Of a DNA stretch of 64,000 nucleotides, positions 15,411 through 61,046 are shown one piece after another; positions within the stretch are counted from its first letter, which is position 1; each line of letters begins with the position of its first letter. This stretch comes from Agarophyton chilense (lineage: Eukaryota > Rhodophyta > Florideophyceae > Gracilariales > Gracilariaceae). The DNA is taken from the NCBI GenBank assembly GCA_030374765.1, contig JARGXX010000016.1:186001-250000 (forward strand), given 5' to 3'. The notes beneath the pieces were generated by a model. The model searched no databases and was not told where the DNA came from. It worked only from the letters and a program-made list of their open reading frames with translations. A program made the position numbers and the translations under genes.

Positions 15411-16691
15411 ATGTCTCCCCGCTGCACGCGATGCGCCAAGCCTTTTCCAAACAAAAACGCCCTCAATCGACACATCTTCCACCATCACATTGTCACATCC
15501 TCTCCACCGCCCTCCCCAGTGCGACACACCTTCCCCGATTTCCTGCTAAATCCACTGCCAACCCCAACTCCGCCTTCACAACCAACGTTTGTACCACCAT
15601 CACCAAAACATCATCTGCCGCCGCAATCCCGTCCGCAACTAACCGCCGCACCAACTCCCCCTCAACCACCGCCCCCACCCCAACTCTCACTACAAACCCC
15701 CCCACGAACCCCAACTCCAACAACAACCCTGCCTTCACCAACTCCCACTCCATCACCGCTTCCACCACACCCCTCGTGGCACACCCCACGACCGCCCGCA
15801 CCACCACCGCCCTCACGACCACCGCCCTCACGACCACCGCCCTCACGACCACCCCCACGACCGCCGCCCGAACGACTACCGCCCTCACGACCACCGCCCT
15901 CACGACCACCGCCCGAACGACTACCGCCCGAACGACTACCGCCCGAACGACCACCGCCCGAACGACCACCGCCCGAACGACCACCGCCCGAACGACCGCC
16001 GCCCGAACGACCGCCGCCCGAACGACCGCCGCCCGAACGACCGCCGCCCGAACGACCGCCGCCCTCACAACTTTCTCGTCGCCCTCCTCCGCAGCCATTG
16101 CACCCACCAACCCACCCGTACCTAACAACCCCTACACAAAACACTACAAATCGCCACCACCACCACATCCCAGGCCATCCAAACAACTCCCGCCGTCGCA
16201 CAGCTCAATGTCGCATTTGCGGCCTCACCTTCACTTTAGACAAGTTACAAATTCACCTTCGAACTGTTCACTCCGACGCCAATGACCGGGGTAAAAAGTA
16301 CGCCATCCGCACTCCGTCCTTTCATCGACATACTGCGTCTGCGCCCGCCCCGCCACCCTCAGGTCCAAGTTCCTCCAAGGCCGCCGTCGTCATGAGGCGC
16401 TACCCGTGCGAGGTTTGTGGTCAATCTTTTTCCACCACCAGCATTCGTAACCAACACGTCAGAGACACCCATCAAAAGATACAGATTCATGAATGTCGCA
16501 AGTGTGGAACCAGATTTACCAGACACAGCAGCCTAGTAGATCATATGAACAACACTCACGGCAAACATGGAGGTGGCAAACCGTTCAGATGCCAGTGGTG
16601 TGACGCTGGTTTTGGCAAGAAATGGATTCTCGTGGATCACAAGAGTACTTGTCGAAAAAGGGCCGGCAGGTTTTTTTCGAAGAAACGCTGA
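15411..16691 (+). CDS. C2H2 zinc-finger protein with a long Pro/Arg/Glu repeat linker
   Basis: 426 aa from the ATG at 15411. This start gives MSPRCTRC, matching MDPRRSFRCDRC of the paralogue at 3624; an in-frame ATG at 15378 would add 11 residues. Five fingers: CTRC...HIFHHH, CRIC...HLRTVHSD, YPCEVC...HVRDTH, HECRKC...HMNNTH and FRCQWC...HKSTC (C2HC end). They align with fingers 1, 2, 4, 5 and 6 of the paralogue, whose third finger has no counterpart here. Fingers 1 and 2 are separated by ~240 residues of Pro-rich sequence built largely of PPPER/PPPSR units (see 15793-16072). The last three fingers form a compact C-terminal array, probably the DNA-binding part. Targets are unknown. Confidence 0.8.
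   Translation: MSPRCTRCAKPFPNKNALNRHIFHHHIVTSSPPPSPVRHTFPDFLLNPLPTPTPPSQPTFVPPSPKHHLPPQSRPQLTAAPTPPQPPPPPQLSLQTPPRTPTPTTTLPSPTPTPSPLPPHPSWHTPRPPAPPPPSRPPPSRPPPSRPPPRPPPERLPPSRPPPSRPPPERLPPERLPPERPPPERPPPERPPPERPPPERPPPERPPPERPPPERPPPSQLSRRPPPQPLHPPTHPYLTTPTQNTTNRHHHHIPGHPNNSRRRTAQCRICGLTFTLDKLQIHLRTVHSDANDRGKKYAIRTPSFHRHTASAPAPPPSGPSSSKAAVVMRRYPCEVCGQSFSTTSIRNQHVRDTHQKIQIHECRKCGTRFTRHSSLVDHMNNTHGKHGGGKPFRCQWCDAGFGKKWILVDHKSTCRKRAGRFFSKKR
15793..16072 (+). repeat. 15-bp coding minisatellite (PPPER/PPPSR units)
   Basis: About eighteen head-to-tail 15-bp units related to CCACCGCCCGAACGA, with CCCTCACGA and GAACGACTA variants, inside the zinc-finger linker. Because unit length is a multiple of three and the units lack stops, several frames on both strands stay open, producing spurious Thr/Ala-, Val/Arg- and Gly-rich reading frames. 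Confidence 0.9.
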
Positions 16692-36196: not shown

Positions 36197-36320
36197 GCAG
36201 CAAACAGAGACATCCGTTGTCTTTTTGACCCCTTCCCAACCGCAAAAATGTTGGAGTCTTCTTTTGGATAAAAAGTCGGTAGTGGTACGCAGTTGTAGCC
36301 ATATGTGAATATTTTTGGTT
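36197..36320 (+). repeat. 124-bp direct repeat, left copy (LTR-like)
   Basis: Matches 38969-39092 without gaps; I count about 14 differences in 124 bp by eye (~89% identity). It lies directly before the gypsy pol remnant. Probably the remaining part of a 5' LTR, with leader, gag and most of RT deleted between it and the pol fragment. Confidence 0.75.
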
Positions 36321-38968: not shown

Positions 38969-39092
38969 GCAGCAACCAGAGACATCTGTTGTCTTTTTGA
39001 CCACTTTCCAACCGAGAAAATGTCGGAGTCTTCGTTTGGATGAAAAGCTCGTAGTGGTACGCAGTTGTAACCTTATGTGAATATTTTTGGTT
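38969..39092 (+). repeat. 124-bp direct repeat, right copy (LTR-like)
   Basis: Right partner of 36197-36320, in the same orientation, beginning ~400 bp after the chromodomain, where a 3' LTR is expected. Flanking sequences of the two copies are unrelated. Confidence 0.75.
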
Positions 39093-41221: not shown

Positions 41222-41663
41222 TGTTAAGGAGCAACGATAACGGTTGAGCTCTGTAAGGCGCCGGGGCCTGAGGTATCTTACAGATGCCACGTGGACCGGC
41301 CGACTTCAGCTGGGCTCATTTAGATTTTTATTTTTTTTAATTAGTGTAATAGATTAGCATTACAGTGCCAGGGAGATCCCAGCGCCTTGCCCTTGTTATT
41401 TACTTGGTTCGAGTGACGCTTCTCTCTTAGAGTAAGGGAGGCACCGTTAGGATACTAAATTACCTTTGGTACACTAGTACCACCAATTGGTATTTAAGCC
41501 ATAGTTTTCGTAGCTCCAACCTGTAGGGCTACGCAGTAATCGCCAGGCCATTGCACCAAGTACTCTGAAAGTGCCGCCGTCAATGATACGAACCTTGGAA
41601 CCCGCTCTACCACGCTACCACCGGTTGAGAGCAGTACGCTGACCCACTAGTCATTGAGTTACA
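41222..41663 (+). repeat. E2 5' LTR
   Basis: 442 bp, TGTTAAGGAG... to ...GAGTTACA, i.e. TG...CA ends. Matches 60601-61046 over its whole length with scattered substitutions and small gaps. Confidence 0.82.
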
Positions 41664-41751: not shown

Positions 41752-42418
41752 TGTAGTATTCTACTATGTCGGGGAATCCGATAGGCTGATTTTTCGCGAA
41801 GTCGCGGTTGGAACTCATAAGTGAGTGATATCATCAGACTTGTGATATGAAACGGCACACCGCGTAGGATTCCATGAGGCAGGTTACATTGTTGGAATAC
41901 GTGGTATCACGAGTGGAGTGGCTTGCAACGGCACATGTAGTGGAGATCCACGTGGCTGGTTTTACTACCCTTTGTAGCTAGACGTCCATTAGGGACCATA
42001 ACCATACAGTGGTTTGGCTAAGTGGCTGACCACTGGGTATTGTTTATATATTTATTTGGGCACTCACCCTGGTACACAGTATATAGTGTACCAGAGATGA
42101 GCGCCGACTCCGAGTAAAGGAGACAACATGGGCATCATGACTATTCTGTTCCTCGCTTAGGATTCCTTAACCGGAGTTCCGGACGAGCTATAATAGGTAG
42201 TCAGCCCCCAACCACTTCAAGAGCCGTATCGTACCTACGTTCCATCAACGTTTTACAGTTGCACTGTTCACCCTTGCTGGCGAGTAGTGGCCTTACACCC
42301 CACTTCCAGCTGGCTGGTGTTATAGCTGTACCACCCCTTTTCCTTCGTCGCAAGCGACCCATCGGCAGTTCGAACGCTGTCGCAGGTGTCTGCTCTCTCC
42401 GTTAGAGCGGATATTACA
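41752..42418 (+). repeat. E1 5' LTR
   Basis: 667 bp, TGTAGTATTC...GGATATTACA, with imperfect terminal inverted TGTAGTA/TACTACA ends (perfect in the 3' copy). A TATA-rich stretch near 42043-42056 (TTTATATATTTATT) could be the LTR promoter. Confidence 0.93.
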
Positions 42419-42420
42419 AG

Positions 42421-42442
42421 TGGTCTCCCGACTTAGAACCAC
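42421..42442 (+). other. E1 primer-binding-site-like sequence
   Basis: Starts two bases after the 5' LTR with TGGTCTCCCGACTTAGAACC. It shares the GACTTAGAA core and spacing with the E2 site at 41667, suggesting both elements use the same tRNA primer. Confidence 0.5.
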
Positions 42443-42747
42443 TGTGGTCAGCTGCACTGAACAATTCGTCCCTGGAACGTGGAATCGATATCGATACTTG
42501 GAAGAAGGGGAATCACTACAGTTTTTGTTTATCGAACCACCTCCGGCAATTGCGTAATTCATCGTGGCTGGACACGTGGTCGAGAAGTCGAAGACACGAT
42601 TTGGTTCGCACCTGGACTCAGGTTTGGTCTAGGATGCCGAAGACCCGAAGCCAGTCGAGTACTGGTCGCCCCGGTCCTGCGTGACCACCCCCGAAACCGA
42701 GGATTGCCTCATCTGTTGAAGCCGGAGAGCGGCTGTATCTTCAAGCG

Positions 42748-44785
42748 ATGTCGCGCTCACGCTCGGTGAATGATGAAAGAGATCTCTCGGATGTAACGGC
42801 CCCTGTGGCAGCGGCAGTCACGGCCACCACAGAAGCCGTAGTTGACCCTGAGGTCGTCGGACCTAAAGAAGAGGATGATTTGCGCAGGGAAGTGCGTCGT
42901 CTCAAGTCTGAGTCAAGCGCTTCGCGTGTGCGCATGGTTGCGTTGGAATCGCAGATTGCTGCTCTTATCGCTGATGTCGAACAATTACGCAGTGCGCATC
43001 AAGCACTCGTTCGTCAAGACGATGGGAAGCAGGTCTCTGCATAAGTGAAAACACTACATGAGATTTGAACCATCTACTGGAGAGGTACGGGAACACGCCA
43101 GATGCGCTACCCGGCTTAACCGTGGATGTAGAGGAAGTCCTCACTCGAGTTAACCCTCGTTTAGAACGCCTGGAGGCGGCAGTTCATGCGCAGACTGCTG
43201 CTAAACCAGTCGTGCTGGAAGAGGAAAGAGTTCCTTTGAAGGAAGCTCGTTCGAAGAACTCGAAGTCACGACGTTAGAAGCGGAAGTTCGCACGTGATTC
43301 GAGTGATAAATCGTCAAGTACGGAGGGTTTCAGTTCCAGTACTGATAATTCTGATGATTCAGATACTTCAGATGACGATGACAGTTATGATGGTCATCGA
43401 AGGTCCCGATCTCGGAAGAAGAACACGTCTTCGTGGTTGATGAGAAAAAAAGGCTCACCTTACAGAGGATTGAAGGTGCTCCCGTGCACGAATCCGCTTT
43501 ATCGGAAGGTCCTGAGCTACAGGTACTACTGTCTGAAGGTGAAGAGCAAGAAGCGCTCAGGACCCGAAACCGCGAAGGTGAAGGATCACATCAAACGATT
43601 GAAGATCGGCCTTAATGATTTAACATTTGATGGGAAAACCCCCATTCTCGTTTTCGAGTTTCTCACTCGATTCGTTGCCGAAGCAGACACTGTAGAGATG
43701 AGTGAACAACAGGCATTTGTTTTTTTACCCCACTTTCTGAAGGGTTTTGCTTTAGAGCAATATCGTTCCGTATGCGGATCATTGACAGCCGATGAAGGCG
43801 GCGTTACCTCATGGCCAGAGGCGGTGCAGTATTTGCTGCGCAGTTACGCGACTTCAAACGCGATACGTCAGGCGATCCTGGATCTAAGGGATGTGACCCA
43901 AAAGCCTGAGGAGGGCGAAGCTGAGTACAGCTCAAGGCTCAACAAAGCTTCAGTCCGCTGTGGAAACGTCCACTCGACGGAGGACAAGATCACCTTGTAC
44001 ATCGACGGGCTGGACCCGAGCATCAAGTCTTTGGTAGCTCGATATCGAGAGAAGCATGGAAGAGTCTCCTTTTTGGAGTTAGTTCAGTTTGCGAAAACTG
44101 AAGGAGACGCCGCCAGAACGCGTGGTAGCCCCCGTCGTTCAGTGGCTTTTGGAACCTCAATGGGTAAGGAGAAGATCTCCGCCAGAGTTAATCAGCGCAG
44201 CAAACTGCTACATCTAAAATCTCCAGTTGACTCGCTAGATTCGTCGTTGGCACCCAAAGGGAGTGACTCGCATGAGGAGGCGGTCCATTTAATGGAATAA
44301 CGGACTCTTCTGTACCTACAGTGGATCTCCCACACTCGGAATCTCAGGACGAGGAAGCCCTAATGGCTATGGAGGGCCGTCGCCCTATGTACCGTCCCTA
44401 CACGGTGCCACCACAAAAAGGTTTTGAGAACGGGAAACCCGGATGGGTGGATACTCGCACGGCATACCGTTCACAACCTATGTTGACCAACCGTCGTGAC
44501 GGTTTGATATGTTATTCATGTTATGGAAAACACCATTTGAGTGCAGAATGCACGCTTCCTGCAAAGGATCTGAGTCGTAGCATGACGAATTATGATGCAC
44601 TCTCGGAAGAGGAAAGGAGCCGCGTACCGGCGGGCATGTATTGGAAATCCAAAAGTTGGTTTTCTCAGACACCAATGCGCCGGACGGAAAAGCCGGTTGC
44701 TCAGAATGCTGAAGTGTTACAACCCGGAACCCGGGTAGGAAGAGGCGCCTTTGAGACGAATAAGCCGGTGCAACCGGAAAACTAG
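42748..44785 (+). pseudogene. E1 gag, frame-broken
   Basis: Three consecutive frames make up the gag region. First, 42748-43044: an N-terminal basic start and a coiled coil (LRREVRRLKSESSASRVRMVALESQIAALIADVEQL). Second, about 43065-44300 with an internal TAG at 43275: an Asp/Ser-rich stretch, then a retrotransposon gag/capsid domain (FEFLTRFVAEADTVEMSEQQAF; YLLRSYATSNAIRQAILDLR; EGEAEYSSRLNKASVRCGN). Third, 44321-44785: a CCHC zinc knuckle CYSCYGKHHLSAEC (C-x2-C-x4-H-x4-C, complete). The protein would form the cytoplasmic virus-like particle that packages element RNA. Two frame changes and stops make this copy defective. Confidence 0.75.
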
Positions 44786-44826
44786 GTGAGGGATCCCCTA
44801 GGGGGTCGGCACTAGTCGATCCCGTA

Positions 44827-47800
44827 GTGCTGACCAGGGAGAGCTCGCCTCCCTGCTCCCGCACTTGGAAGCCCAAGATTCTCTTGAGGCCTCAGAAATT
44901 TCCGCCGTACGGAATCAATCCGCCGGACGGAAAGCGAGTACAGTGTGACTGTGAGTTACATCGTCCTTGGAGACGTTATACTTCTCCGTCAAAACGGGAA
45001 AGTTACCTCATGGTAGTGTCTAAAAGAACCTATAAGGTCTATGCCGACATCGGCTCTGACAAGAACCTGTTATCTCGTCGATTGACTATCCTGGACACAG
45101 GTGATGGTCCGAACTTTATACGGGAATCGGAGCTCGCTCCTTCTGACTTAGAACGTATTCGATACGGTCCTTTACCGGACATCCGGGATGCCAACAAAAA
45201 TGCTGTGAAGACACTGGGAACAGTTCGACTCGTGGTGCGTTTGGGACGCTTTGTAGCCCTAGTCGACTTCATCGTCTGTAAAACGATAGCTGCACCAGTG
45301 GTACTGGGATTTGATAATTGCAACAAGTTTGTCGAAGCCATTCGCCCGCTACGAAAAGTAGTTGAAATAGATGATGGATCAATGGTACCAATTGTTCGCA
45401 AGCCAATGGATCGTTGCTCTGAAGCACCTCCACTTCCACCATCTTTGTAATACGGAAAATCTCGAGGATGTGTCTCGCCGAGGATTCGAGTAGCGAAGAG
45501 TGCCATGCTGAAGGCGCAAACCCAAACTTGGATTCAAGTAAGAACAGAACGACACGGACTCGTGGTAATTCAACCAAATACTCGGATGTACAAATCCCGT
45601 GGATTGCTAGTCGCTAACGGCATTGTTCAGGTTGATCCTGGTAGCCCCGTTTGGATACTAGTGAGTAACTTCATCGATAACGATTATCAGATACCGAAGA
45701 ATCAGGTTGTTGCAACAGCTTTGCCTCATCCCACAGTGGTGATCCCTACTCATATTTCTACTGCAGAAGTATTGGGATTAACCCATGTCGGTGACACAGA
45801 CGAAGAACTGCAAACTCCGTCTGGAGATCAATTGCAAACGGCAAAGGATCCAGAGAGCTTGGTCGATGATCTAGACTTAGCACATGTGCCGGAACACTAC
45901 AGAACGAAGATCAGGTCTATGCTGAAGAAGTATACACCCATGTGGAGTGGAAAGCTAGGAGAGATCTCCACTACGGACCACCACATTGATTTGGTCCCAG
46001 GGTCACGACCCATCTCCCAACCACCGTACAGAACGGGACCGCGAACTCGCCAAATCGAGGAGGAGAATGTCAGTAAAATGCTGGAAGATGGAGTAATCGA
46101 AGCAGCTCAATCTGCTTGGGCCTCACCAGTGGTGCTGGTTCCAAAACCTGATGGTTCTTTACGATTCTGTGTCGATTATCGAAAACTGAACGCAGTTACA
46201 GTTCGAGATACATACCCGTTGCCTCGAATGGACGAATGTATCGACAGCTTAGGAGAAGCGAACGTGTTCACCACGTTGGACGCCAACTCTGGCTATTGGA
46301 AGGTGCCTGTAGTGGAAGAAGACCAAGATAAAACCGCATTTGCGTGTCACGCCGGTCTCTACCGTTTCAAAAGGATGCCCTTTGGCTTAACGAATGCACC
46401 GGCTACTTTTCAGCGTACTCTGGACATCTTGCTCTCAAGATACAAGCGGAAGACTTGTTTAGTCTATTTGGACGATGTGATCATCTTTTCCCAGGATGTG
46501 GAAAGCCATTTACGGCATGTCGAGGAGATCCTCAAAGCACTACAGAGCGCAGGTATCACCTTGAAGTTCAAGAAATGCGAATTTTTCGCTGGCACCGTCC
46601 GGTACTTAGAACATGTGATCAAGCCGGGACAGCTTGCCATTCAAGAGGAACAAACAGCGGCTCTCCGCGAAGTACAACCTCCGTCGACACAGAAGCAATT
46701 TCGTTCTTTCCTCGGCTTTTGCAACGTCTACCGACGATTCGTGCCGCGATACTCGCATAGAGCGGCACCGCTCAACGCAAAGCTGCGTAAAGGACAACCA
46801 GTACAGCTAAAACAATTCAAACAAGCTGAAGCGGAAGCGTTCGACACGCTGAAGACAAAGATTATTACAGCCCCAGTCTTGGCGCTGCCCATCCCCAACC
46901 TGCCATACTCAATGGATACCGACTCTAGCGAGTACCAAGTAGGGTGTGCCCTTTTTCAAACACACCCTGATGGTGAACGCAAACCCATTGGTTACTGGTC
47001 AAGATCGCTGAACGCAGCTGAGAAGAAGTATTCAGTTTCATAAAAGGAATGCCTTGCAGTCGTTTGGGCTCTAACCACATTGCGACCGTATCTTCAAGGG
47101 GAACGTTTTACCGTCAACACGGATCATTCGTCTCTACGATGGTTACTGTCCAATCCAGACCTGTCTGGTCGTCTCACACGATGGCGCTTACGCCTTTCTG
47201 AATTCGATTTCGAAGTGAAGTATAAGAAGGGATTGGCCAATGTCCAAGCTGACGCGCTATCCCGACTCAAAACACTGGGCAAAACCCAAGGCGAAATCGA
47301 TGAAGAGATACCTTGCTTCTACATGGAGACCCATTCACCATCTTTTGAAGAAGAGGAACAAGATACCCTTGATGATTATTCGGATGCAGATCCGTTCCTT
47401 GCATTAGCAGACACTGACCCTTCAGTTCAACTCGAGTGAATCTCGTGCACTGAGCTCCTCAATGAGCAACACGCCGATACGTTTTGTGCGTCGATACGTT
47501 CTCGTCTTAACAGGGGGGAGGAGCTCCCCTTTTCAATCCATTCACGAGAAATGCTGTTAAGACATGTCGAAAAGCATGATCAAATCGTGATTTCACACGT
47601 CTTGAAGATTCGAGTACTCCATCTGGCACACTACAGCAGGCTGTCTGGTCATCCAGGAAGAACGAAGTTGTTCATGACTCTAAGAAGAGATTTTTACTGG
47701 CCTACTTTGGCAATGGACTGCCATGCTACAGTGAGGTTGTGTACAACATGTGCGAAGAATCGCGTGAAGCTTTACAGGAAGCGGAAACCGATGACGTTAT

Positions 47801-48678
47801 TCCAGGCAAAAACGCCTTTACAATACGTCAGTATCGACATCCTAGGGGAATTGATTCGCTCAAGGCATGGTTATCGCTACCTATTGATTATCACCGACCG
47901 CTTCTCGAATTATCGGGATATGCCCCGTGGCACGCGCACACCCGTTAGTACAGAAATGGAACCTGAACGCAGGAAAGATGTTTTGGACTTTGGCCCCAAG
48001 GACTTGGAAACGAGTGCACGCGAAAACGCGCCGTTGTCGCTTCAGGCTGAACCGTCAGGTGAAGCGCCACTCGCTGTTCCGCCGATATCGGCTCCCATCC
48101 CTCGTGGGCAGAAAGAAGAAGAGTTATCGCCTCCTGTCGTGGTGCAAGCACCATCGTCCACCGAACAGCGGTCAGAATCGGATAAACCGAAGGAAGTTCA
48201 TCCACGAATGGAATTGAGAAGTAGCAAGAAGTACGATTCTATGGAGCCTGGAAAACAGGATAGCTCTTTGTCTGAGAAAGGTTCTCAAGGAATGAGTACA
48301 CTGCCCCTGCGGGCAGAACGACAGTTAGTCGACGAGCGAACGCTTAGCGACGCTGAGACTGCTAATACGGAGACGCTTGGGTCAGCCCTAAGGCATTTCA
48401 AACCTGTTAACAGGAGTCTCGCGCCAACAGCGAAAACATTGGGAAACGCCCCGGAATATGTTATGGATCGCATATGTGAACATGGCGAGCATGAGGATAC
48501 TAGAGAATTACTGTATCGAGTCCGTTGGTACGGTTTTCCTCCGGAAGAGGATACGTGGGAACCTATAGCTCATATCCCCCGTTTGCAACTCGTGCGGTAT
48601 CATCGAATCATGCGATTAACACTGCCAAGGGAGATCGACTCCTCGATAGTCGGGCTCATGGGCACGCCCCATTTCTAA
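44827..48678 (+). pseudogene. E1 pol: protease, RT, RNase H, integrase remnant, chromodomain
   Basis: One continuous frame with three nonsense codons: TAA 45448, TAA 47041, TGA 47437. The aspartic protease has LDTGDGPNFI (catalytic Asp codon at 45094) and VVLGFDNC. The RT (45505-46750) has FCVDYRKLNAVT, LDANSGYW, FKRMPFGLTNAPATFQ and the intact YLDD box at 46465-46476. RNase H follows (MDTDSSEYQVG..., NTDHSSLRWLL, QADALSRL), hit by the TAA at 47041. The integrase has the HHCC zinc module (LAHYSRLSGHPGRTK ... CTTCAKN) and the first catalytic Asp (codon 47836). It then jumps from ITDRFSNY straight to a disordered tail, so the second Asp and the Glu are gone. A chromodomain ends the protein (YRVRWYGFPPEEDTWEP, about 48459-48620). 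Chromodomains steer insertion to marked chromatin. Confidence 0.85.
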
Positions 48679-48921
48679 TTATGGGCTACAAAGGTAGTAA
48701 AAACTCGAAAGGCGAAAAGAAAACAAGAAATCATGAACAGGAAACGTGAAGACACGCAAGCAAAGGACATTTACTGATTATCACCTATGAAGAACTCGAG
48801 AAGCGAGAAGAGATGAAGACTAGAAGATAAGAAGAGAATTTGAAGACACGAAGTCACCGGAGTTTTATTGGTATCAAGATACCACCGCAAGGGTGTTGAC
48901 TAGGAGCCTTTTCTATGATCA

Positions 48922-50748
48922 TCAAAGAGACGTGCGAGCACGCAGGTTCGCGAAAAGCTGTGCGCGATCACCCTCAACTTGGTCCATGGGAAAGCCCGCG
49001 TCTAAGAAGAACTGCCTCAGCGGATCCAAGCCTGGATCTTCGACCGGCACTGCACTCGGTTGTTGGGTAAACCCATGACAGTACTCTTGAGCAACTCCCG
49101 CCGCTGCGGATTGATCGACGGAAGTCGCTACGCCTGCCAGCTCTGGCTCGTCCTCGTAACCGAGTTCAGCCTCAGCTCCCGGCGCTTCCTCATACGGTTC
49201 CTCTCCGTTCTCGGATGGAGTAGCATCGTACACGTATCCAGTAAGCAGGTTCGGTGGCATGTGACGCGGGTTCTCCCGAAGAAAGCGAGCCTGGTCGGAG
49301 GTGATCAACTGGCGCATCCAGGGGTCGTACCAAACGAAATCTCCAGCACTTTCTGTTCGTCCAGGAGAATGGTCGTAGTGTCTTGCACGGGTTCCGCGAG
49401 CGGATTGATCAGCTGGCACTCCAGACCAATCGACACTGTCGATCAAATCCACAAGATGGAGGAAGTCGGCATAGTTCGCACGGGATCCCAGGACAAGGGA
49501 AAGATCGAGTTCTCTCGCATACTTTCGCGCTGTGGGCGACATGTACCAAACTCTAAAGGCGTCATAAGCATCCCAAAGGAGGAAGACGGTCATCTTGGCG
49601 ATAAACTCGGTATAAACCACCGTCCAATATCCCGAGAACGGGTCGTTAACAAACGCGGACCCGATGTAGGAGATCGCCGGTGGGAGCTCCACAGGGCAAC
49701 CACGAGGACTCTCGATCGCCGCCCAATGCTACGGAATACCGATGTAGCGCCCGAAGCGCGCGTTCCGCCGGATGCGGTCAATCTCGATCATTTGATACGG
49801 CACCAAATAGCCCAAACGTGATCGAGTACGACGTTTCCAACGGAGATAATCCCAATAGGGAATGTCACGATTTCGAAGGAAGTGGAACTCCGCACGGAGA
49901 AGAGGTTGCTGAAAGCAGAGAGCTGCATCACGCACACCGCGCACACCGCGCCAACCGCTAACATCGACTTCAACGAGTGGCTCGATATACGAGTAACCTT
50001 CACCGTCGGTACGGGCTTTCCAGGTATCTAGTTCCCAGTCCTGCGGGAGGAGAACCGTACTGATGAATCGGTGAAGACGCTGGTAAATCAGCTTGGTGAA
50101 CCGCGTACGGGCTTCGGACAAGGTTTCCGTTGAATATAGCGCAATCGCGTTGTCTGGCTAAGCAATATGGCTCGCCCAGTCGTCGCTGTAAATCGCCTGT
50201 TTCGGAATACCGTCAGGAAAATACCCACCGTGTACATACTGTTGTATCAACGCGTCATCGCGGATAGCAACTGGGTCAAACCAGGGCGCTTGCGCGAAAA
50301 GTTCAACGTTGTCGAGAGGATCTCGTCCATAGAAATCCGCAGGGTGGGGGTAGCTCCGCTGAGCACGACGAGAGGGAGCTCGAATCACACGCGCAGAGGC
50401 GACGTAAGCCGCGTTCGGCATCGGAGCCACGGTTGGCTGAGGTAACGGTACCGACCGGAATCCGGTGTACGGTGTGGGGAACGAACGGTATGGACCGAGT
50501 TGAGCAGTAGACTGCGTCGCATAACCCGCAGTGTTAGACGGAGCCCCAGGAGGCACATCCTCGGAGGAGGGCTGAAACGGGTTGGACCCGGCGTTTGAAT
50601 CCATCGCGAGAGATCGAGCTGAAGAGCGGTGAGGAACAGAATGCTGTTGAGAACTGTAAGAGTTGGTCGGGCGGCGAGGAATTCGTGATGACGATGAGTA
50701 CCCGGAACACCGGTCCGACTGCGTATAAACGCTTCTTGCGTCCCCCAT
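48922..50748 (-). pseudogene. E1 antisense ORF between pol and 3' LTR (unknown protein)
   Basis: On the strand opposite to gag-pol, one frame runs 609 codons from the ATG at 50748, only 25 bp inside the 3' LTR, to 48922. It is broken only by two TAG codons (50158-50160, 49729-49731) and shows no frameshift. N-terminal ~200 residues are Ser/Pro/Ala-rich and probably disordered. The middle (~230-420) is compact and aromatic-rich (FHFLRNRDIPYWDYLRW; GYWTVVYTEFIAKMTVFLLWDAYDAF). The C-terminal ~130 are acidic and Pro-rich. No signal peptide, clear TM helix, zinc motif or catalytic motif is recognised. The middle resembles the antisense protein of E2 (58003-60050). Expression would need an antisense promoter, possibly in the LTR. 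Function unknown. Confidence 0.6.
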
Positions 50749-50762
50749 GGTTCGCGCTTAAC

Positions 50763-50772
50763 GAGGGGGGTA
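50763..50772 (+). other. E1 polypurine tract
   Basis: GAGGGGGGTA lies immediately before the 3' LTR, where plus-strand synthesis is primed in LTR elements. Called from position and composition. Confidence 0.6.
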
Positions 50773-51439
50773 TGTAGTATTCTACTATGTCGGGGAATCC
50801 GATAGGCTGATTTTTCGCGAAGGCGCGGTTTGAACTCCTAAGTGAGTGATATCATCAGATTTGTGATATGAAACGGCACACCGCGTAGGATGCCAGGAGG
50901 CAGGGTACATTGTTGGAATACATGGTATCACGAGTTGAGTGGCTTGCAACGGCACATGTAGTGGAGATCCACGTGGCTGGTTTTACTACCGTTTGTAGCT
51001 AGACGTCCATTAGGGACCATACCCATACAGTGGTTTGGCTAAATGGCTGACCACTGGGTATTATTTATATATTTATTTGGGCACTCACCCTGGTACACAG
51101 TATATAGTGTACCAGAGGTGAGCGCCGACTCCAAGTAAAGGAGACAACATGGGCATCATGACTATTCTGTTCCTCGCTTAGGATTCCTTAACCGGAGATC
51201 CGGACGAACTATAATAGATAGTCAGCCCCCAACCACTCCACGAGCCGTCTCATACCCACGTTCCATCAACGTTTTACAGTTGCACTGTTCACCCTCGCTG
51301 GCGAGTAGTGGCCTTACACCCCACTTCCAGCTCGCTGGTGTTGTAGCTCTAGCACCCCTTTTCCTTCGCCGCAAGCGACCCATCGGCAGTCCGAACGCTG
51401 TCGCAGGTGTCTGCTCTCTCCGTTAGAGCGGATACTACA
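50773..51439 (+). repeat. E1 3' LTR
   Basis: 667 bp, same length as the 5' copy with no gaps needed. Ends TGTAGTA...TACTACA are perfectly inverted. Confidence 0.93.
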
Positions 51440-51559
51440 TTAGCCCCCCAACGGACCAGAAGTACAGAAGCAACCGCCATTTTGGATGCAGGAAACACAC
51501 CGAACCGACCAGACCATGGGACTTCTACGGCAGGACCAGCTGCCATTGCAACGCTGACC

Positions 51560-53585
51560 ATGACGTTTGAACCACAGGTTGATAATGTTAGCGACCGCAG
51601 GAGCACGAGACGCCAGCTGCAAGGAGTAATGACTCCGATGGACGACCCTGAAAGGATTCGCCGAGAACCCACGGTGCCAGCGCGTTTACGAGAACGCCAT
51701 ACCAGGGCCACGTCTAGGCCAGTAACACCCCGAGGAGAACCTCGTAAGACCGAAGGGATTAGAGAGAACATTTCCGCCGTACTTGCCGACCTTCTTTGGC
51801 CTCGTCTCCGTAAGCTCTGCTCAGCCCATGTGGATGCCATTGTGAACATGCGACTCGCTACGGCGATCGCTGACCATACGAACTACCTCATTACGCAAAT
51901 CGTCACCAAGATCATGAGGTCTGAGCTATTCATAGTCTACCTCATTCACTCCGTTCAAGGAGCAGTCACCAGCCAGTCAGGAAACACGGTCCCTAAGACC
52001 ACTCAACAAGTCAACCATCCGGCTTCCGTTTGGCAACCCCGTCCCGAACCCCCACGACTGGCGGCATTACCCGCCTCTCGCCGGGAACACCATCAAGAAA
52101 ACCCAATGGAAAGAAAACCTAAAGGCCTAAGAGAGGCTCCGCGTCTACAAGAGAGACAGATTGCCCTTCTCAAATGACAATATGAGGTACAGCGACCTCA
52201 GGGCTCCATGGAGTCTGATAGAAAGATCGATCCTTAAGTCCCTCTTCCGTTAGAAAGAAAGGAAGTAACCGCAGGAGAAAGAATAACAGAAGAAGTAAAA
52301 CATGAAACCATTCGGACACGAGTGATTCCGAATCGGCCTCGACCAAAACGACGGACTCGGAAGTGGATGAGGCTGCCGTTTGAGGCCTCAAACTATTGAA
52401 AACAACGAAAGAACTTTTCTTTAAGGTTCTAGACTACCAGAATTACCGATTGGCCGAGAAGTCTCCGAGATATTCTGGTTCGGTGGCTCAAAGAGTCACC
52501 AAATAGACCAAATGGATGCAACTAGCTATTACGGACAAGTTCTTGGGTTCCGATCCCATTACTGTCCTTAGGTTTCTTAGTTTGTTCCGTACGGCCTGTG
52601 ATCAGAACGGTGCCCAAGAGGGCGCCGCTCTGTACCTTTTCCACAATTCTTCCCCACAAGACAGGCACGTGACCGAGTCGTTTCGAAGATATCTGGCACA
52701 ACTGACCTTGTGGATGCCCGAGACCGTGAGCTCCTCAGGTCATATCCCCAGGTTTTTCATTATCTCTCGGGAACCTATGCCACGGATGACATTATAATGG
52801 ATGCCCACAAGGAAGTGATATTCTTTAGGCAGAGTTCCAACATGACAGAATCGGCTTTCGCCGACGACCTATGGAAGAAGGCTTACCGATGTGGAAACAT
52901 ATTCTCCGAAAGGCGGCTCAAACTTCATTTCATTACGAAATTACTCCATGCCATTCGGACACATGTCCGCAATTACCACACGAAAAACCCACAATAATCC
53001 TTCTGACGGCTGGTCACCTATGCCAAAAGATATGGCAAAACCTACAGAACTTCCAGGCGCAATGCTGATTTACCCGAAGGACACGTAAATACATTTCGTA
53101 AACCAAACAAAGCCCATTTGGTTAGCTCAACGGAATCGGACATGGATTCATCAATCTATTATGCCGACTCGGGAGATATCCTTGCGGCTAATTTCAGTGC
53201 CCCTCCACCTGGGCACCCGTCATACACCTCCCAGGGAACTACAGCGACCACTGGATCACCTACGCCCAAGTATTCCCCCATTACACCGCGCAAGGACGTC
53301 TTTGTTCGCTCACCAAGGGCCTGCTTTCTCTGCCTTTCCAACGTCCAACCCTGTAAGTGCACGAGGTATTTTCTTGAAGACGCACGCCAACATCTCCTAG
53401 CCTTAAGGAGAGGGAACTACAAGGTGAGGAGGTCCGAAGGAATGTTTACCAGGGCACAGAAACGAGCCACAGGAACACCTGGAAGCTCCCGCTATGTCAC
53501 CCCTCCGGATACCCCAATGAAAGCCCCACAGGTCTATGCCCTTGTAGACCCCGCGGACGAACTTGAAGAGGAACCTTATCCTTAG
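51560..53585 (+). pseudogene. E2 gag, frame-broken
   Basis: The first part (51560-52177, 205 codons from the first in-frame ATG after the E1 insertion) is basic and Arg/Pro/Thr-rich. A frame open further upstream belongs to the E1 LTR and is not genuine. The capsid-like part spans two frames (52516-52797 and 52710-52997): ITDKFLGSDPITVLRFLSLF, YPQVFHYLSGTYATDD, IFFRQSSNMTESAFADDLWKKAYRCGN. The last part (53118-53585) holds a cysteine cluster, CFLCLSNVQPCKC, which looks like a decayed knuckle without the His. At least three frame changes. Confidence 0.65.
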
Positions 53586-53668
53586 GAAGAAACGGAAACC
53601 CCATCGGAAAACGTTTAGAGAGTCGACGCGAGGCAAATTCGCCCTCTTTCCGTCCATGCCTCAACCGA

Positions 53669-56600
53669 TTGGACGGTCAGAAGCCAAAGAGCTCCCCACC
53701 TACCAATAATGACCACAGCCATTGGAAAACTCCGAATGGACCAGAATTGGAACACAGTACAGACCCTGTCTGCATTTTCAGGAAAGCGAATTATAAAGAT
53801 CGAGTAACCGTGGAACTTCGTTCCAATAATTCTCGAGTGACAACAGCCATGTTGGGAACAGCCGCTGGTCCCAATTTCGTCCATCCTAAGCTACTCTTAA
53901 TTGGTTGGCAAGATTTCGTTCAGGAAAGGAAGACCCCCAGAATTACCGATGCATCACGTAGACCAATGGACATTAAAGAGATAGTACAACTTTACCTCCA
54001 GGTAGGACAATTCAAAGTCCGCACGTGGTTCCTTGTGTGTTTTAACTTGGCCACTGAGGCAGTCCTAGGGACTTCCTTTATCGATCGATACATTAAAACT
54101 ATTTATCCAGGCCTTAGGAAAGTAGCATTCTATCGCGCACCTTCCATCTCCATAACTGGTTCCGCCCAGGGCCTGAAGCTAACCGCAAACGAGCGGTTAT
54201 CTACGAAAACACGAAGTCCACTAAAGTTCCCTTGTCGAAGGCCATAACGATACCCCCGATGGCCCAAATCACTGTATCGGTCCATTCTCAGTCCAATGGA
54301 GTAGTGGAAATCCGCCCCAACAGGGCCTTTTTGATCACAATCAGCAACTTTAGAGATAAACCCGTACGGTTACCTAAAGTTACAGTGAATGGCATCACTC
54401 TACTTGCGCCTGTGGCTATTATAGAGGCCCAGATGGATAACTTTGCAACGCCAGCTCCCGACGAGGAGGTCGACTCTTGGGAGGGGACAGTCGCTATCGG
54501 CGCAGAATTCGAATCCTATAGGCCCCAGGTTCTTGATCTCCTCAGGGAATACCAGGCCATGTGGTCAGGTAGATTGGACAAATCAGAGCCACTACACACC
54601 GCATTGACCTTCAGAATGATCCTAAACCACAGTTTCAGCACCAATACCGTACAGGCCTTAAGGGTAGGGATATTGTCACCGACCAGATGGACATAATGCG
54701 CAAAGCTCACGTCATAGAGGCGGCGCCTCATAGCCGATCCGAATGGGCAGGTCCCCTTTTCCTCGTGGCGAAGAAGGATGGCTCCGTCAGGTTCTGTCTC
54801 GACTACAGGAAGCTGAACGCAGTATCCAAGAGGGACTCATACCCGATACCCCGCATGCATGACTGTCTGGATTCCTTAGGCGAAGCTGTCGTATTTACCA
54901 CACTGGACGCTAACTCCGGGTATTGGCAAATCCTTTTGGTCGAAGACGCGAGAGCGCTGACAACCTTTACCACCCATGAACGTCTGTTCGGATTTACTCG
55001 TTTACCCTTTGGTTTAAAGAATGCGCCAACAACCATCCAACGGGTAATGGACATCAACTTGTCCAGAGTCAAATGGAAGTTCGCCTTGGTCTATTTGGAT
55101 GTGGTGATAATCTTCTCACGAACCGTGAAGAAACACATTCGCCACGTGTGGAAGGTGCTAATAATCCTACAGGACGCTGGAGTAACACTGAAACTCCGCA
55201 AATGCGCCTTATTCCAGGCCTCGGTGGGCTATCTTGGTCACGTCGTCCTCCCAGGAAAACTAAAGGTAGCCACACGGACCACAAAGGCGATCCGCCAGGC
55301 TAAACCTTCCAGGACCCACACGGAACTACGATCCTTCGTGGGCTTATGCAACGTTTACCGACGAATCGTCCAAGGGTTTGCCAAGATCTCGGTCCCTCTC
55401 TACGCGATGCTGAAGAAGGGAACACCTTCGGAGTTTGAATGCCTTACCAATGACCGGTACGAGGCATTTCAGACCCTAAAGGACACATTGCTGAACCCAC
55501 CTATACTGGCTTTAGCAAAACCCAATAGGCCCTTTTTCCTGAAAACCGATGCCTCTGATGTCCAAGTAGGATGTGCACTGCTACAGGAACCGGAGTCACC
55601 GAAGAACAATCGACCTATTTGATACTGGAGCAAAACGCTCAGCAGTGCGAAACGAAACTACAGTACTACCGAAAAGGAATGTCTAGCCATCGTATGGACC
55701 GTATTGACATTAAGTCCATACCTCGAGGGAACTAGGTTTACCAATGAACAGACCACAATTCACTCCGCTGGTTACTCAATATGACCGATGCATCAAGTCG
55801 ACTCGCTCGGTGGCGCCTCAGGTAGTCCGAATATGACGACGAGATAACCTATAGGCCAGGCATCAAGCACCAGGCAGCATATGCCCTCTCGCGAATCATT
55901 ACCGACGGAACTGATGACACGCCATTGGCTGAACTCATTAATACTTCCTTAACAGATAATGGACCTCAGGGTTATAAGGAAACGGATAACTTTATGGGAA
56001 AGGTCAATGTGGATGATCCTGAGGTAAAGGAGAACGAATTATACGTATTGGACTGGGAGACAGTACCACTCAATTCGACACCACCTCAAGTTAACACGAA
56101 AGCCCCGGAGGCAAAATACCTCCTCTATATAACAATTGAGGAACTCCTACAGGCGCAGATCGAAGACGAGTAATGCAAGGAAACAGCCCAATTGGTAGGA
56201 AGCCCTGGATGCATATTCGACTATGACCTATTTGGACCACTGTGTCGCCGCTCACCGTTGGATGGAGCACTGCAGCGGGTGATACCAAGTTCACTAAGGG
56301 CGCGATTCATATACCTCGCCCATTTCCCTCGCTTGGCTGGTGACCCTGGAGGCCGACGAATGTACCAGACCCTAAGAAAGTTTTTGTACTGGCCACTAAT
56401 GGCGCATGACCTATGGCAAACCGCACGGAACTGTACATCGTGCGCATAAATCCGAGGGTTTTGCGCCAACCATCAGGCCAAATTGAAGCTTTTCCCCGCC
56501 GCAGGTCCGATGGAATTTGTTGTAACGGATATATTTGGGCATTTGCCTAAGTCTTTCCATAGGAAACAGTTTGTTTTGGTTATAACAGATAGGTTTACCA

Positions 56601-57766
56601 AACTTACCCGAACCCTACCACTAGGGAAGGTAACATCCACAAATGTCGCCAAGGCCTTCCTGTCCCACTGAGTATATTCATCTGGCATGCCAATCTATCT
56701 CCTTACGGATAACGGCAGCCAGTTTGTATCCAAATCCTTGTCACACGTTTGTACTACCTTAGGTATCAAACATGTGACCACCACGGCGTACCACCCGCAA
56801 ACCAATGGCCAGGCCGAACGCTTCAACCGCACCCTTCTGGGCCGATTGCCACAATACGTATCGGTGCACCAATTGGGCAGAGACGACTACATTGAGCCAC
56901 TGGTTTATGCTTGCAACACGCTGGTGCCCGTTTCCACAGGGAGAAAACCTTTGGATTTAACTCTAACGAGATCGCCGCCGCCGATAGCTGTTGACCTTCA
57001 GGAGTCTATTAGACGCCAGAAAATAACCGAAGGAATGAATCCTACCCTGGCGAAGCGCTACTCGCTCCGACGCATCGACCGCATTTTCCAATCGGCTAGA
57101 GCTGTACTGGCGAAAGCCCAACGGCGTTACAAGGTCAATTTCGACAAGGCCGTCTGGAACACAGCTACCTTTGGGAAAGGAGAATTGGTTTACCTAGAAC
57201 GGCCATCGAAGGACAGTGGTGAACTCGAGGACACTACGCGGAAGCTCTTACCCCGCTCTACGAGACCATACAAATTCATTAAGGCCAATCAACATACCAT
57301 TACGTTACTAATTGACGGCACACAGAACGAAGTATCTATTGGTCGGGTGACACGAGCCCACAGCTCTCCCGAATCACCAAAGTCCCAGCCCCCTGGTCCG
57401 ACGATATCGCCACGATCTCAGGTCAAGGCTCAAGTCCCGACACCCCGTAAGGCAATTCCCGCGGACCTTACTAGCCACATGGACCCGATGGTCGATGGCA
57501 ATGAAGATGATCCATCTCTCCCAACCGACTCCGATGGATTCGCCCTTCTGGACCACACTCTCCTTCCGGAGAATGAACACCAACCGGAATACGTGATTGA
57601 ATGCATCATCTCCGCCGTTCGGGGAAAAGACGGAACTATGCGCTATCGTGTCCGCTGGTTCGGCTACACACCTGAGGAAGACACTTGGCAAGAGCCTCAA
57701 ACCATTCCGGCTAATTTTATCGCCCGCTATTTTCGCAAAATCGGCAGCACGCAGCGCAACCTTTAG
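53669..57766 (+). pseudogene. E2 pol: protease, RT, RNase H, integrase, chromodomain
   Basis: Protease frame 53669-54247 has LGTAAGPNFV where active enzymes have the DTG triad; the Asp codon at 53855 is Gly. After frame changes near 54240 and 54690 comes RT (54687-55622): FCLDYRKLNAVS, LDANSGYWQ, RLPFGLKNAPTT, but YLDV at 55092-55103 in place of YLDD. A TGA at 55620 and a frame shift near 55740 break RNase H. From 55925 to 57766 one frame continues with stops at 56171, 56447 and 56669. It holds a zinc module with one ligand changed (LAGDPG against GHPG in E1), then an integrase core with all three acidic residues: Asp 56528, Asp 56708, Glu 56816, the last two exactly 35 residues apart. A GPF/Y-like module (TRPYKFIKANQHTITLLIDG) and a chromodomain (YRVRWFGYTPEEDTWQEP) complete the protein. 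Confidence 0.85.
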
Positions 57767-57795
57767 GAGGGGGCAACCATTGGCCCGAACAATAC

Positions 57796-57843
57796 CAAAA
57801 TGCCTCCCAAAACGCCTCCCAAAACGCCTCCCAAAACGCCTCC
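57796..57843 (+). repeat. Four tandem 12-bp units after E2 pol
   Basis: CAAAANGCCTCC repeated four times (57796-57807, then three identical CAAAACGCCTCC units) about 30 bp after the pol stop codon, in the spacer between pol and the antisense ORF. Confidence 0.9.
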
Positions 57844-58002
57844 CGACACGACGGTTTGCCGTAGCTCTCGCTTCAGGGAATGAAGTCAGTCCTCAGGCGT
57901 CACCTGAGAAAGACCTGAGACACTCTCAATGTTGGACGCCACCCCGGAGCACGCACGTTTGAGGAATACAGGAAGCAACTTTAGAAAAGCACAAGCATTT
58001 CT

Positions 58003-60050
58003 TTATTTGACTAAATAACAGAGGATCAACAGCCCTCGCCATGACCTCAAGATTCGCAAAAGTGCTCCGAACACCAACAGGACTGACTGGGGCGGCGCAG
58101 GAGTAACTAGGTCGTCCTCATTGGAACCTGCAGGAGCGAAACCGGGACTAAGGTCACCCGGAGAGCTTCCAGTACCAATACGACTGGCTCCAGCGAGCCG
58201 AGCACGCTTCTTCGGCGAAGATTTACCTGCGGAAGTATTGTAACCATCCGAAGCCTCCCGGTCGCTCAAATGTAGACCATACCGTGCATCCAAGTGGGCA
58301 TCAACCCTCTGGGACATCACTTGGGCATTATGCTGCAGGATATTGACCATAGCGGTATTCGGATCGTTGCTATGTTGGACATCCGTGGCGTAGCGCGCGG
58401 AGTAACGCGCCCAGGAGCAAACTTCCCTCAGGACAGTCGCAATTTTCATCAAGGCAGTGATGCCAACGGTACGGCAGACATGACGAAGATCCGCGGCTGC
58501 AGCCGTGACCGAAGCGGGAAAATGCGGCAAGGGAGAAGAAGGAGCGATGTCGACGCCCACAGTGGACGTCGGAGCCAGTGCATCACCTACAGAACTTTCG
58601 GCTTCCACAGTAACCTCGCCAGGAGAGATGTCTATTTGGGCGACGGGCGGCTCGTATTAGAGTTCATCCTGAGGAGCAGCGCCCGGAGAAGCTGGAGGAG
58701 GAGAAGCGGTCGGCAACACAACAGCGGACTCGACTGGAGGATTGACGCCCTCCACGGGTCGGACGAAGGGATCTTCACTGAAGGATTCTCCATCGCACTT
58801 AACTGCAGGAACCAACGGCGTGGCTTCCACATCAGGCTCGAAGCACAAGGGATCGATGCCAATGACCTCCGGGTAGTAGTCGGGCACATGACGCCTCGGG
58901 ATGTCCGATGGTTGATTCCTCAAAGGCTTGGCGGGATAGGCACGAGCATCGTCCCGACCCTGCAAATGTAGCTGAATCGGCGTGAATGAGTCGGTATCGT
59001 GGTCATAGCAGAGAAACCCGGGAGTCTTGCCCCACTCGACCTGTAGGACATGATCCAAAAAGGCCTTGGCCTCCTCGACGTCGAACTTGGTTTCACGAAC
59101 GATATTCTGAATTCCCAGGTTTCTTTGGAAATTGATCATGATGTCAGAGAGCGCGATTAGACGACCTCGAGAATCGAGTATGTTCTCTTCGTGCCATACC
59201 CTCCAATGCTCCGACCGGACAGTACCACGGACGCCGTATTTCGCGGTATCCAGGAAGGCCATAAGGGACATCACGCCGAACTCAACGAAGAGTACCTGCC
59301 AGGTCAACCAAGACCTTAAACCATTTTCGTCGCTCATGAGTTCAGACGAATGGTAGGACACAACGGACGGCGTGGGAAACAAAAGGAGCGGCGAGACACG
59401 CCAGTACATGGACCATTTGTTCTCATATACAAGGGGCAGCGAGAAATATAAAGGAAGACGTTTGTAGGCTCTCATGTCGTGAAACTCCACCTGGTGCCAA
59501 CAAAAGAAGAACTCCAGGGATTGACGTAAACGACCATTGGGCTCCTGCATCTCATTCCAATAGACCCTATTGGACATCCAAAACAGGCGGTCATTCTGCG
59601 GACGGAAGCACATGAGCGCCAAGAGGTTGTGACCCGTCGGAGAAAAACTCAGATGAGGCGAGATGAAGTCCGCGTATAGGTCAGAAAAGAGTTTTTTCAC
59701 CCTGAACTGATATTTGGCTTCCTCCTCGCAGCAAACGTACGGCATGTCCGCTTGGAGAAGGGTGCGACAGCGCGTCGCCGAACACGGATCCACAGGAAAT
59801 GCAACCATCGGTTGTACCACGAGACCCCACGCGCGTTCTTGCTGCCCCTCCGGAAATCGGGTATCTTTGCGAACCTCCGGGCGTTGAGATAAATAAGACA
59901 AAACCTTTGGTATTCTTCCACAGAGGACAGAAGAACGGCATGAAGCACTGCCCGCAGGTTTCGTCCGATGGAATGGTCATAGTGGTCCCCGGAACGTTCA
60001 TAAGCCACTTGGTATCCCAAGGAGCTCCCCGCTTGGTTGTTCGAAGCCAT
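58003..60050 (-). pseudogene. E2 antisense ORF between pol and 3' LTR (unknown protein)
   Basis: Opposite in strand to gag-pol. A start ATG at 60050 (MASNNQAGSS...) runs ~55 codons, then the frame changes near 59885. From there one frame continues to 58003 with a single TAA at 58657-58659. Total is about 680 codons. The middle is rich in aromatic residues (LFWMSNRVYWNEMQEPNGR; LEFFFCWHQVEFHDMRAYKRL; RSWLTWQVLFVEFGVMSLMAFLDTAKYG), followed by an acidic Pro/Ala-rich region and a C-terminal part with SPKKRAR, a possible nuclear localisation signal. Blocks EFHxMRxxxxLP and W-x-V-x-F/Y-x-E-F correspond in order to blocks in the E1 antisense protein. No known domain is recognised. Confidence 0.6.
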
Positions 60051-60600: not shown

Positions 60601-61046
60601 TGTGAAGGAGCAACGATAACTCTTGAGTCTTGAAGGCTCCCGGGACCTGAGGTATCTTACAGACGCCACGTGAACTGGCCGACCTCGGCTGGGCTCATTT
60701 AGGTACCTATTTTTTTTAAAATAGTGTAATAGATTAGAATTACAGTATCAGGTAGAACCCAGCGCCTCGCCATTGTTATTTACTTGGCTCGAGTGACGCT
60801 TCTCCCTTAGAGTAAGGTAGGCACCGTTAGGATACTAAATGACCCACTTTAGTACATTAGTTCTACCATTTTGTCTTCAAACAATCGTTTCCGTAGCTCC
60901 AACCTGTAGGACTACGCAGTAAACGCCAGCCCATTGCACCGAGTACTCTGGGAGTGCCGCCGTCAAGGATACGAATCTTAGGATCCGCTCTACCATGGTA
61001 CCACAGGTTGGGACCAGTACGCTGACCCACCAGCCGTTGCGTTACA
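60601..61046 (+). repeat. E2 3' LTR
   Basis: 446 bp, TGTGAAGGAG...GCGTTACA, partner of 41222-41663. The immediately following CCTAC forms the target duplication with CCTGC at 41217-41221. Confidence 0.82.

Follow-up and report, generated by a model that had tools for sequence, protein, structure and literature searches.

A probable antisense third gene between pol and the 3′ long terminal repeat of Ty3/gypsy elements in red algae

What is the long open reading frame (ORF) that two Ty3/gypsy elements of the red alga Agarophyton chilense each carry on the strand opposite to gag-pol? The elements, E1 and E2, lie in a stretch of 64,000 nucleotides (contig JARGXX010000016.1, positions 186,001 to 250,000), here called the window, and in both of them the frame stands between pol and the 3′ long terminal repeat (LTR). 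Most antisense genes described in LTR elements come from flowering plants, with a few from retroviruses, and their role in LTR elements is given as unknown in these sources (PMC7264820, PMC11963269). The best explanation as a whole, which draws on sequence and which we hold to be quite probable, is a conserved antisense third gene of red-algal Ty3/gypsy elements. In this reading a group of these elements carries the gene between pol and the polypurine tract. By computation, the frame codes for a protein and has been kept by purifying selection while the elements replicated, it is homologous across several element families, and it occupies the same slot and strand wherever both genes can be placed confidently; it was probably inherited together with pol since before the families split.

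The E1 frame (48922..50748, minus strand) runs over 608 codons from an ATG at 50748 to a TGA at 48922, with in-frame TAG codons at 49729-49731 and 50158-50160. The original prediction had taken just two amber codons over this length to be far beyond chance, and 2000 dinucleotide-preserving shuffles of the E1 frame bear this out: the best of the six frames had 14.5 stops on average and never fewer than 6, and a chance open frame was rejected on that ground. The E2 frame (58003..60050, minus strand) leads from an ATG at 60050 to a TAA at 58003, with a further TAA at 58657-58659 and a shift of frame near 59,800, across which the homology moves from a 151-codon to a 439-codon frame. One long antisense frame per element, as had been predicted, is thus an accurate description of E1 and a slightly generous one of E2. 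Across the genome, at least 143 matches to the E1 frame and at least 96 to the E2 frame were scored, and for each family 30 loci, the best matches to the window copies, were fetched. Five of the 30 E1 copies have a frame of 611 codons without a stop, among them L067 and L068 with an identical frame, and two of the 30 E2 copies, L017 and L022, are open for 655 and 682 codons from ATG and span 698 and 748 codons from stop to stop. In L060, another open E1 copy, Ile replaces the first ATG and the frame begins at codon 49, in line with translation starting further downstream. This second possible start (50604 in the window) aligns with the first Met of the database relatives P0001 and P0003, and the first Met of P0006 and that of P0007 are close to it; the first 48 codons of E1 hold only 3 shared variants for the choice between 50748 and 50604.

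Are the two frames the same gene? The window's own copies give a weak answer, as one piece of E1 matches E2 at E = 0.001 and the other E1 piece has no match (best E 8.2). Open copies of the two families match at E = 7e-5, and hhalign aligns the E1 and E2 profiles with a probability of 93.7 (E = 2e-7; 25% identity over 201 columns), the profiles being shallow, with 14 and 13 sequences and Neff, the effective number of sequences, of 1.5 and 2.0. Two relatives bridge the families: P0007, of E1 type with 547 aa, and P0011, of E2 type with 769 aa. They match each other at E = 5e-11, and this match scores 52 bits against at most 25 bits in 60 shuffles. The ordered blocks that had been noticed by eye are real and stand in the same order: an R-rich block that runs into L-G-[YF], then E[IF], P-P/P-S...Y, and an aromatic/hydrophobic W..[VF]..E[FW]. 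On these alignments the E1 and E2 antisense proteins are homologous.

Is the encoded protein under constraint? Differences counted plainly by codon position are nearly flat in E1 (0.054, 0.046, 0.058) and have a clear coding pattern in E2 (0.143, 0.120, 0.215). A plain pairwise ratio of nonsynonymous to synonymous change (Ka/Ks, omega) was not used, because most differences between copies arose after insertion; variants were sorted by whether a single copy (private), two copies, or three or more copies carry them. L068, a duplicate of L067, was excluded from this test but included in the codon-position differences. Private variants have an omega of 0.98 both in E1 (605 nonsynonymous, N, and 234 synonymous, S) and in E2 (N 1109, S 381), and private stop codons occur at the neutral rate (35 against 34.5 expected in E1, 52 against 52.2 in E2). 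Omega falls to 0.93 (E1) and 0.86 (E2) for variants in two copies. For those in three or more it is 0.57 in E1 (N 39, S 31; Fisher p = 0.006), with no stops against 2.6 expected, and 0.40 in E2 (N 255, S 278; p = 5e-28), with 8 stops against 16.7 expected; recurrent mutation can mimic sharing in these counts, and the loci had been picked by similarity to the window copies. The shared variants of the E1 and E2 antisense frames are under purifying selection. Constraint is tightest in the E2 core (codons 60-430, omega 0.31) and absent from codons 510-608 of E1 (omega 1.07, 10 variants), and the 3′ parts of pol, tested likewise, had omegas of 0.64 (p = 0.07) and 0.67 (p = 0.08). These values bear on the idea that the antisense RNA itself is what matters, tuning the sense RNA through double-stranded RNA, with the open frame incidental. 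Antisense non-coding transcripts of LTR elements have indeed been described (PMC7264820), but the amino-acid constraint (omega 0.40) and depletion of stops, the alignability of the proteins between families at 20-55% identity and the existence of open proteins of 547-828 residues make this idea very improbable.

The slot and strand of the frame recur beyond the window. Five element families (E1, E2, E1b, E1c and E2b) have homologous antisense frames, and a sixth has a remnant. The P0006-like family, E1b, numbers at least 33 places that are 67-100% identical to P0006, and its locus L071 carries a 639-codon minus-strand frame (634 from ATG) with the C-terminal part of an integrase ahead of it on the plus strand. 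In the P0011-like family E2b, 14 of 58 matches cluster at 44-48% identity, and the frame of loci L069/L070, which lies opposite a 1119-codon pol, has 852 codons, 828 of them from ATG. Elements chosen by reverse transcriptase (RT) alone contained the antisense frame, with identical slot and orientation, in all three loci fetched: L072 has a 185-residue remnant with 65% identity to E2, and of the two E1c loci, L073 has an antisense protein interrupted by a stop and L074 is open over 610 codons, 508 of them from the first ATG. When each antisense match was paired with an RT match within 8 kb, the frame lay on the opposite strand and downstream of RT in 88 of 91 pairs. All 63 E1 pairs are of this kind, with 2.7-4.5 kb from the RT start to the frame, as are 25 of the 28 in E2, where two pairs have the RT 5.7-6.1 kb upstream and in the remaining one the pairing took the closer of two RTs, though the other fits. 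Among the RT matches listed, 80 of the 143 antisense matches of E1 and 68 of the 96 of E2 found no partner, and the pair counts speak to orientation, not to prevalence. By eye, 12 of the 14 E2b matches could be paired, all of them opposite and downstream.

Same place and orientation were thus found in the copies and families that could be checked. By slot, conservation and presence in most copies, the last referring to the matched copies and the three RT-picked loci only, the long ORF would be classed as an antisense additional ORF between pol and the 3′ LTR (aORF-3R). The original prediction, that two gypsy families share a real antisense protein gene, is supported by the profile match, the constraint on shared variants and the recurring slot and strand. 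In L073, a tandem array of GAAGAAGAAGAT-like units stands between pol and the antisense gene (L073:3689-3925), which recalls the tandem repeats of plant Retand elements in that slot.

How old is the association with pol? RT identity among E1, E2 and E2b is 50-54%, against 20-32% for the antisense proteins, which indicates that the antisense gene evolves faster than RT. By their pol pieces E1 is closest to E1c, and E2 or L072 to E2b, and the antisense proteins group alike. Because the two groupings agree, the gene was most simply present in the common ancestor, and it is probably older than the split of the two pol groups.

This history also bears on the possibility that the elements took up a host gene a single time and have borne it along as a passenger. 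Retroelements are known to capture genes, though the source that describes this argues against capture for antisense ORFs (PMC7264820). Shared variants are constrained within the element, and the gene is present across families in step with pol. Three query searches of a database of 5.8 billion proteins, each scoring the 7995-7996 candidates that shared most words, returned 7, 4 and 11 relatives; none of these belongs to a named cellular family, and the named ones are all from Gracilariaceae (Agarophyton chilense and Gracilariopsis chorda). Together these points make capture unlikely. Among the relatives, P0006 of A. chilense is identical to the studied genome over residues 1-363, and P0014, the hypothetical protein BWQ96_08668 of G. 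chorda, has 53% identity over 47% of the query. The database lists BWQ96_08668 and the A. chilense 'unnamed protein products' without function or element annotation, and BWQ96_08668, annotated as a host hypothetical protein, may be an element gene. The conserved antisense gene would account for such 'unnamed' and 'hypothetical' proteins in Gracilariaceae annotations as genes of elements.

What might the protein do? It had been predicted to match no recognised family, and this held: no antisense protein exceeded any cut-off in Pfam, NCBIfam or PHROGs, and sequence searches of the PDB found no relative, with one xylose isomerase row at E = 0.27. A PDB profile search with the C-terminal alignment returned 12 chance-like rows (best E 0.012, a SecDF fragment) and no SAP protein, Foldseek with a 560-residue model gave two meaningless matches (best E 6.2), and among viral relatives in IMG/VR none of five pattern matches was confirmed. 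E3_binding, with a best E of 0.029 and present in 11 of the 23 members of A4, stayed far under its cut-off and was dropped. The E2 branch has basic C-termini, and some proteins of the E1 branch have a C-terminus weakly like SAP/Ish1; these are weak hints that the product could be an accessory protein that acts in the nucleus and binds nucleic acid. The roles proposed beforehand may also apply, namely nuclear import, a chromatin factor, RNA binding, or a transcriptional regulator expressed from an antisense LTR promoter. A membrane protein for cell-to-cell spread, envelope-like or of the movement type, might instead be read from a hydrophobic stretch in the core, whose best 19-residue hydropathy is 1.82 in E2. 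This is the only one of five proteins above 1.6, the value set for a clear transmembrane segment; the stretch contains charged residues and reaches only 1.28-1.58 in the other four, E1, P0007 and P0011 among them, so that a membrane protein is scarcely probable.

Several observations weigh against a conserved antisense protein gene or against the role suggested for it. The structure models are poor, with a mean pLDDT (predicted local distance difference test) of 35 for the first and 38 for the E2b-type core. The SAP reading is weak (root-mean-square deviation 6.4) and absent from three of five C-terminal pieces; it gained no support from Foldseek or the PDB profile search and was not seen in the E2 branch. 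A PKKR motif is missing in E1 and E2b, with KKRAP in P0009. The congruence of pol and antisense gene comes from pairwise identities, not from a tree, and the RT of E2 is barely closer to that of E2b (53.7%) than to that of E1 (51.2%). One sense-strand frame also has a low omega for shared variants, 0.54 in E1 (p = 0.005) and 0.53 in E2 (p = 2e-13), and the omega test of E1 alone therefore does not name the strand. This low value probably results from synonymous positions that coincide with those of the antisense frame. In E2 the sense frame holds 20 shared stops against 8 in the antisense frame, and it is such stop counts, together with the conserved proteins of other families, that on this evidence do single out the antisense strand. 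The frame as a by-product of a sense gene was rejected, since in both families four of the five other frames have an omega of 1.2-2.3 for shared variants and the fifth is the sense frame with its 20 stops in E2.

Is such a gene without precedent? Retand elements of flowering plants, which are Ty3/gypsy, carry antisense ORFs between pol and the 3′ LTR, and TRP28 (PF04195), of unknown function and suspected of DNA binding, is found in 97% of recently active Retand clusters (PMC11963269). Element type, long antisense ORF and slot are thus alike. Retand, however, is non-chromovirus, bears TRP28 and has been reported from flowering plants only; what differs here is the red alga, the chromodomains of E1 and E2, the lack of a TRP28 match by sequence search and the direct test of selection. 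A divergent TRP28 protein, i.e., a gene of Retand type, would account for the shared slot and strand and for a proposed DNA binder (PMC11963269), but none of the 23 members of A4, and none of the E1b, E1c, E2b and L017 proteins, had a PF04195 match at E = 1 or below, and the chromodomains of E1 and E2 also set them apart; we give this origin very little credence. Antisense ORFs in the same slot are further described for Grande (gene23), RIRE2 and PvRetro13 of plants and Boty of a fungus, and the antisense product of Grande is nuclear, with a transcript from a promoter upstream of gene23 (PMC7264820). The slot is shared with these elements, and no sequence relation appeared in general family searches, made without direct comparison of those proteins. 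Human T-cell leukaemia virus (HTLV) likewise has an antisense gene near its 3′ end, the product of which is a nuclear regulator; this is a basic leucine zipper (bZIP) protein, and no relation to it is expected. The antisense promoter of HTLV lies in the 3′ LTR (PMC7264820).

No title or abstract opening among the entries listed from a partial literature collection dealt with antisense ORFs of red-algal elements. Plants and a fungus are already known to have antisense genes in this slot, and this protein family in red-algal elements appears to be new. We lean slightly towards a fuller reading, in which the antisense ORF would be a standard third gene of red-algal gypsy elements, already present in the ancestor of at least two pol groups that share about 44-50% identity, unrelated to the TRP28 genes of plants, and an independent, deeply kept invention that constitutes a novel family of proteins with a fold of their own. 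An apparently independent red-algal case, with more than 200 scored matches, several families and measurable selection, would make an antisense accessory role testable by comparison, and it points to the place between pol and the 3′ LTR as one where antisense genes are favoured time and again.

How are the two elements themselves laid out? The whole of E1 spans 41752-51439 on the plus strand, with LTRs, gag, RT/RNase H and integrase in Ty3/gypsy order. Its 667-bp 5′ LTR (41752..42418) has TG...CA ends and 95.4% identity with the 3′ LTR (50773..51439), and the flanks, TTAAC and TTAGC, match in 4 of 5 bases. Between the LTRs follow the gag frame (43278..44300; Pfam Retrotrans_gag E = 1.1e-8), RT with the start of RNase H (45451..47043; RVT_1 E = 4e-35), and the integrase zinc domain with a chromodomain (47440..48678; Integrase_H2C2 E = 6e-14, Chromo E = 2e-8). 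The tract GAGGGGGG (50763..50770), which we take to be the polypurine tract, adjoins the 3′ LTR and stands directly beside the antisense ATG, itself 24 bases from that LTR. In E2, also on the plus strand, RT (54573..55622; RVT_1 E = 4e-26) is followed by the C-terminal part of an integrase with a chromodomain (56672..57766; Chromo E = 1.6e-6, above the cut-off, and rve E = 3.5e-6, below its own cut-off) and by the 3′ LTR (60601..61046); the assignment of E2 to Ty3/gypsy draws on the LTR pair, RT and integrase pieces. The chromodomains lie at the integrase C-terminus and score 34.4 bits in E1 and 28.3 bits in E2, above the Pfam cut-off of 25.1 bits, which places both elements among the Ty3/gypsy chromoviruses. 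Chromo was absent at E = 0.01 from the pol frames of E1c and E2b, the E2b frame stopping where the domain would start. In both E1 and E2 about 240 bases separate the end of the antisense frame from the pol stop, and the two genes therefore do not overlap.

Two distinct gypsy elements had been predicted, and both are confirmed, though not as mere neighbours. The probable 5′ LTR of E2 (41222..41663, plus strand) has TG...CA ends and 85% identity with 60601-61046, and it is cut off from the E2 body by E1; this LTR repeat is present at 29 of 30 E2-family loci. Directly after it comes a primer-binding-site-like TTTTGGTTTCCAGACTTAG, resembling the E1 counterpart AGTGGTCTCCCGACTTAG, and E1 starts 88 bases behind the LTR. 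As an E2-type LTR and a primer-binding-site-like sequence stand 88 bases before E1, the arrangement is most simply read as an insertion of E1 behind E2's own 5′ LTR, nested inside E2. E1 would also be the younger element, because its LTRs are 95% identical against 85% in E2.

Near-identical element copies, which form an inverted pair or sit on separate contigs (G000 C120:138479 and 144352; C34, C114 and C115), are perhaps recent duplications or assembly duplicates. Elsewhere in the window, a short tandem repeat array occupies 15788-16072, with units about 78-83% alike, and a 124-bp direct repeat with 89% identity (36197-36320 and 38969-39092) lies outside E1 and E2.

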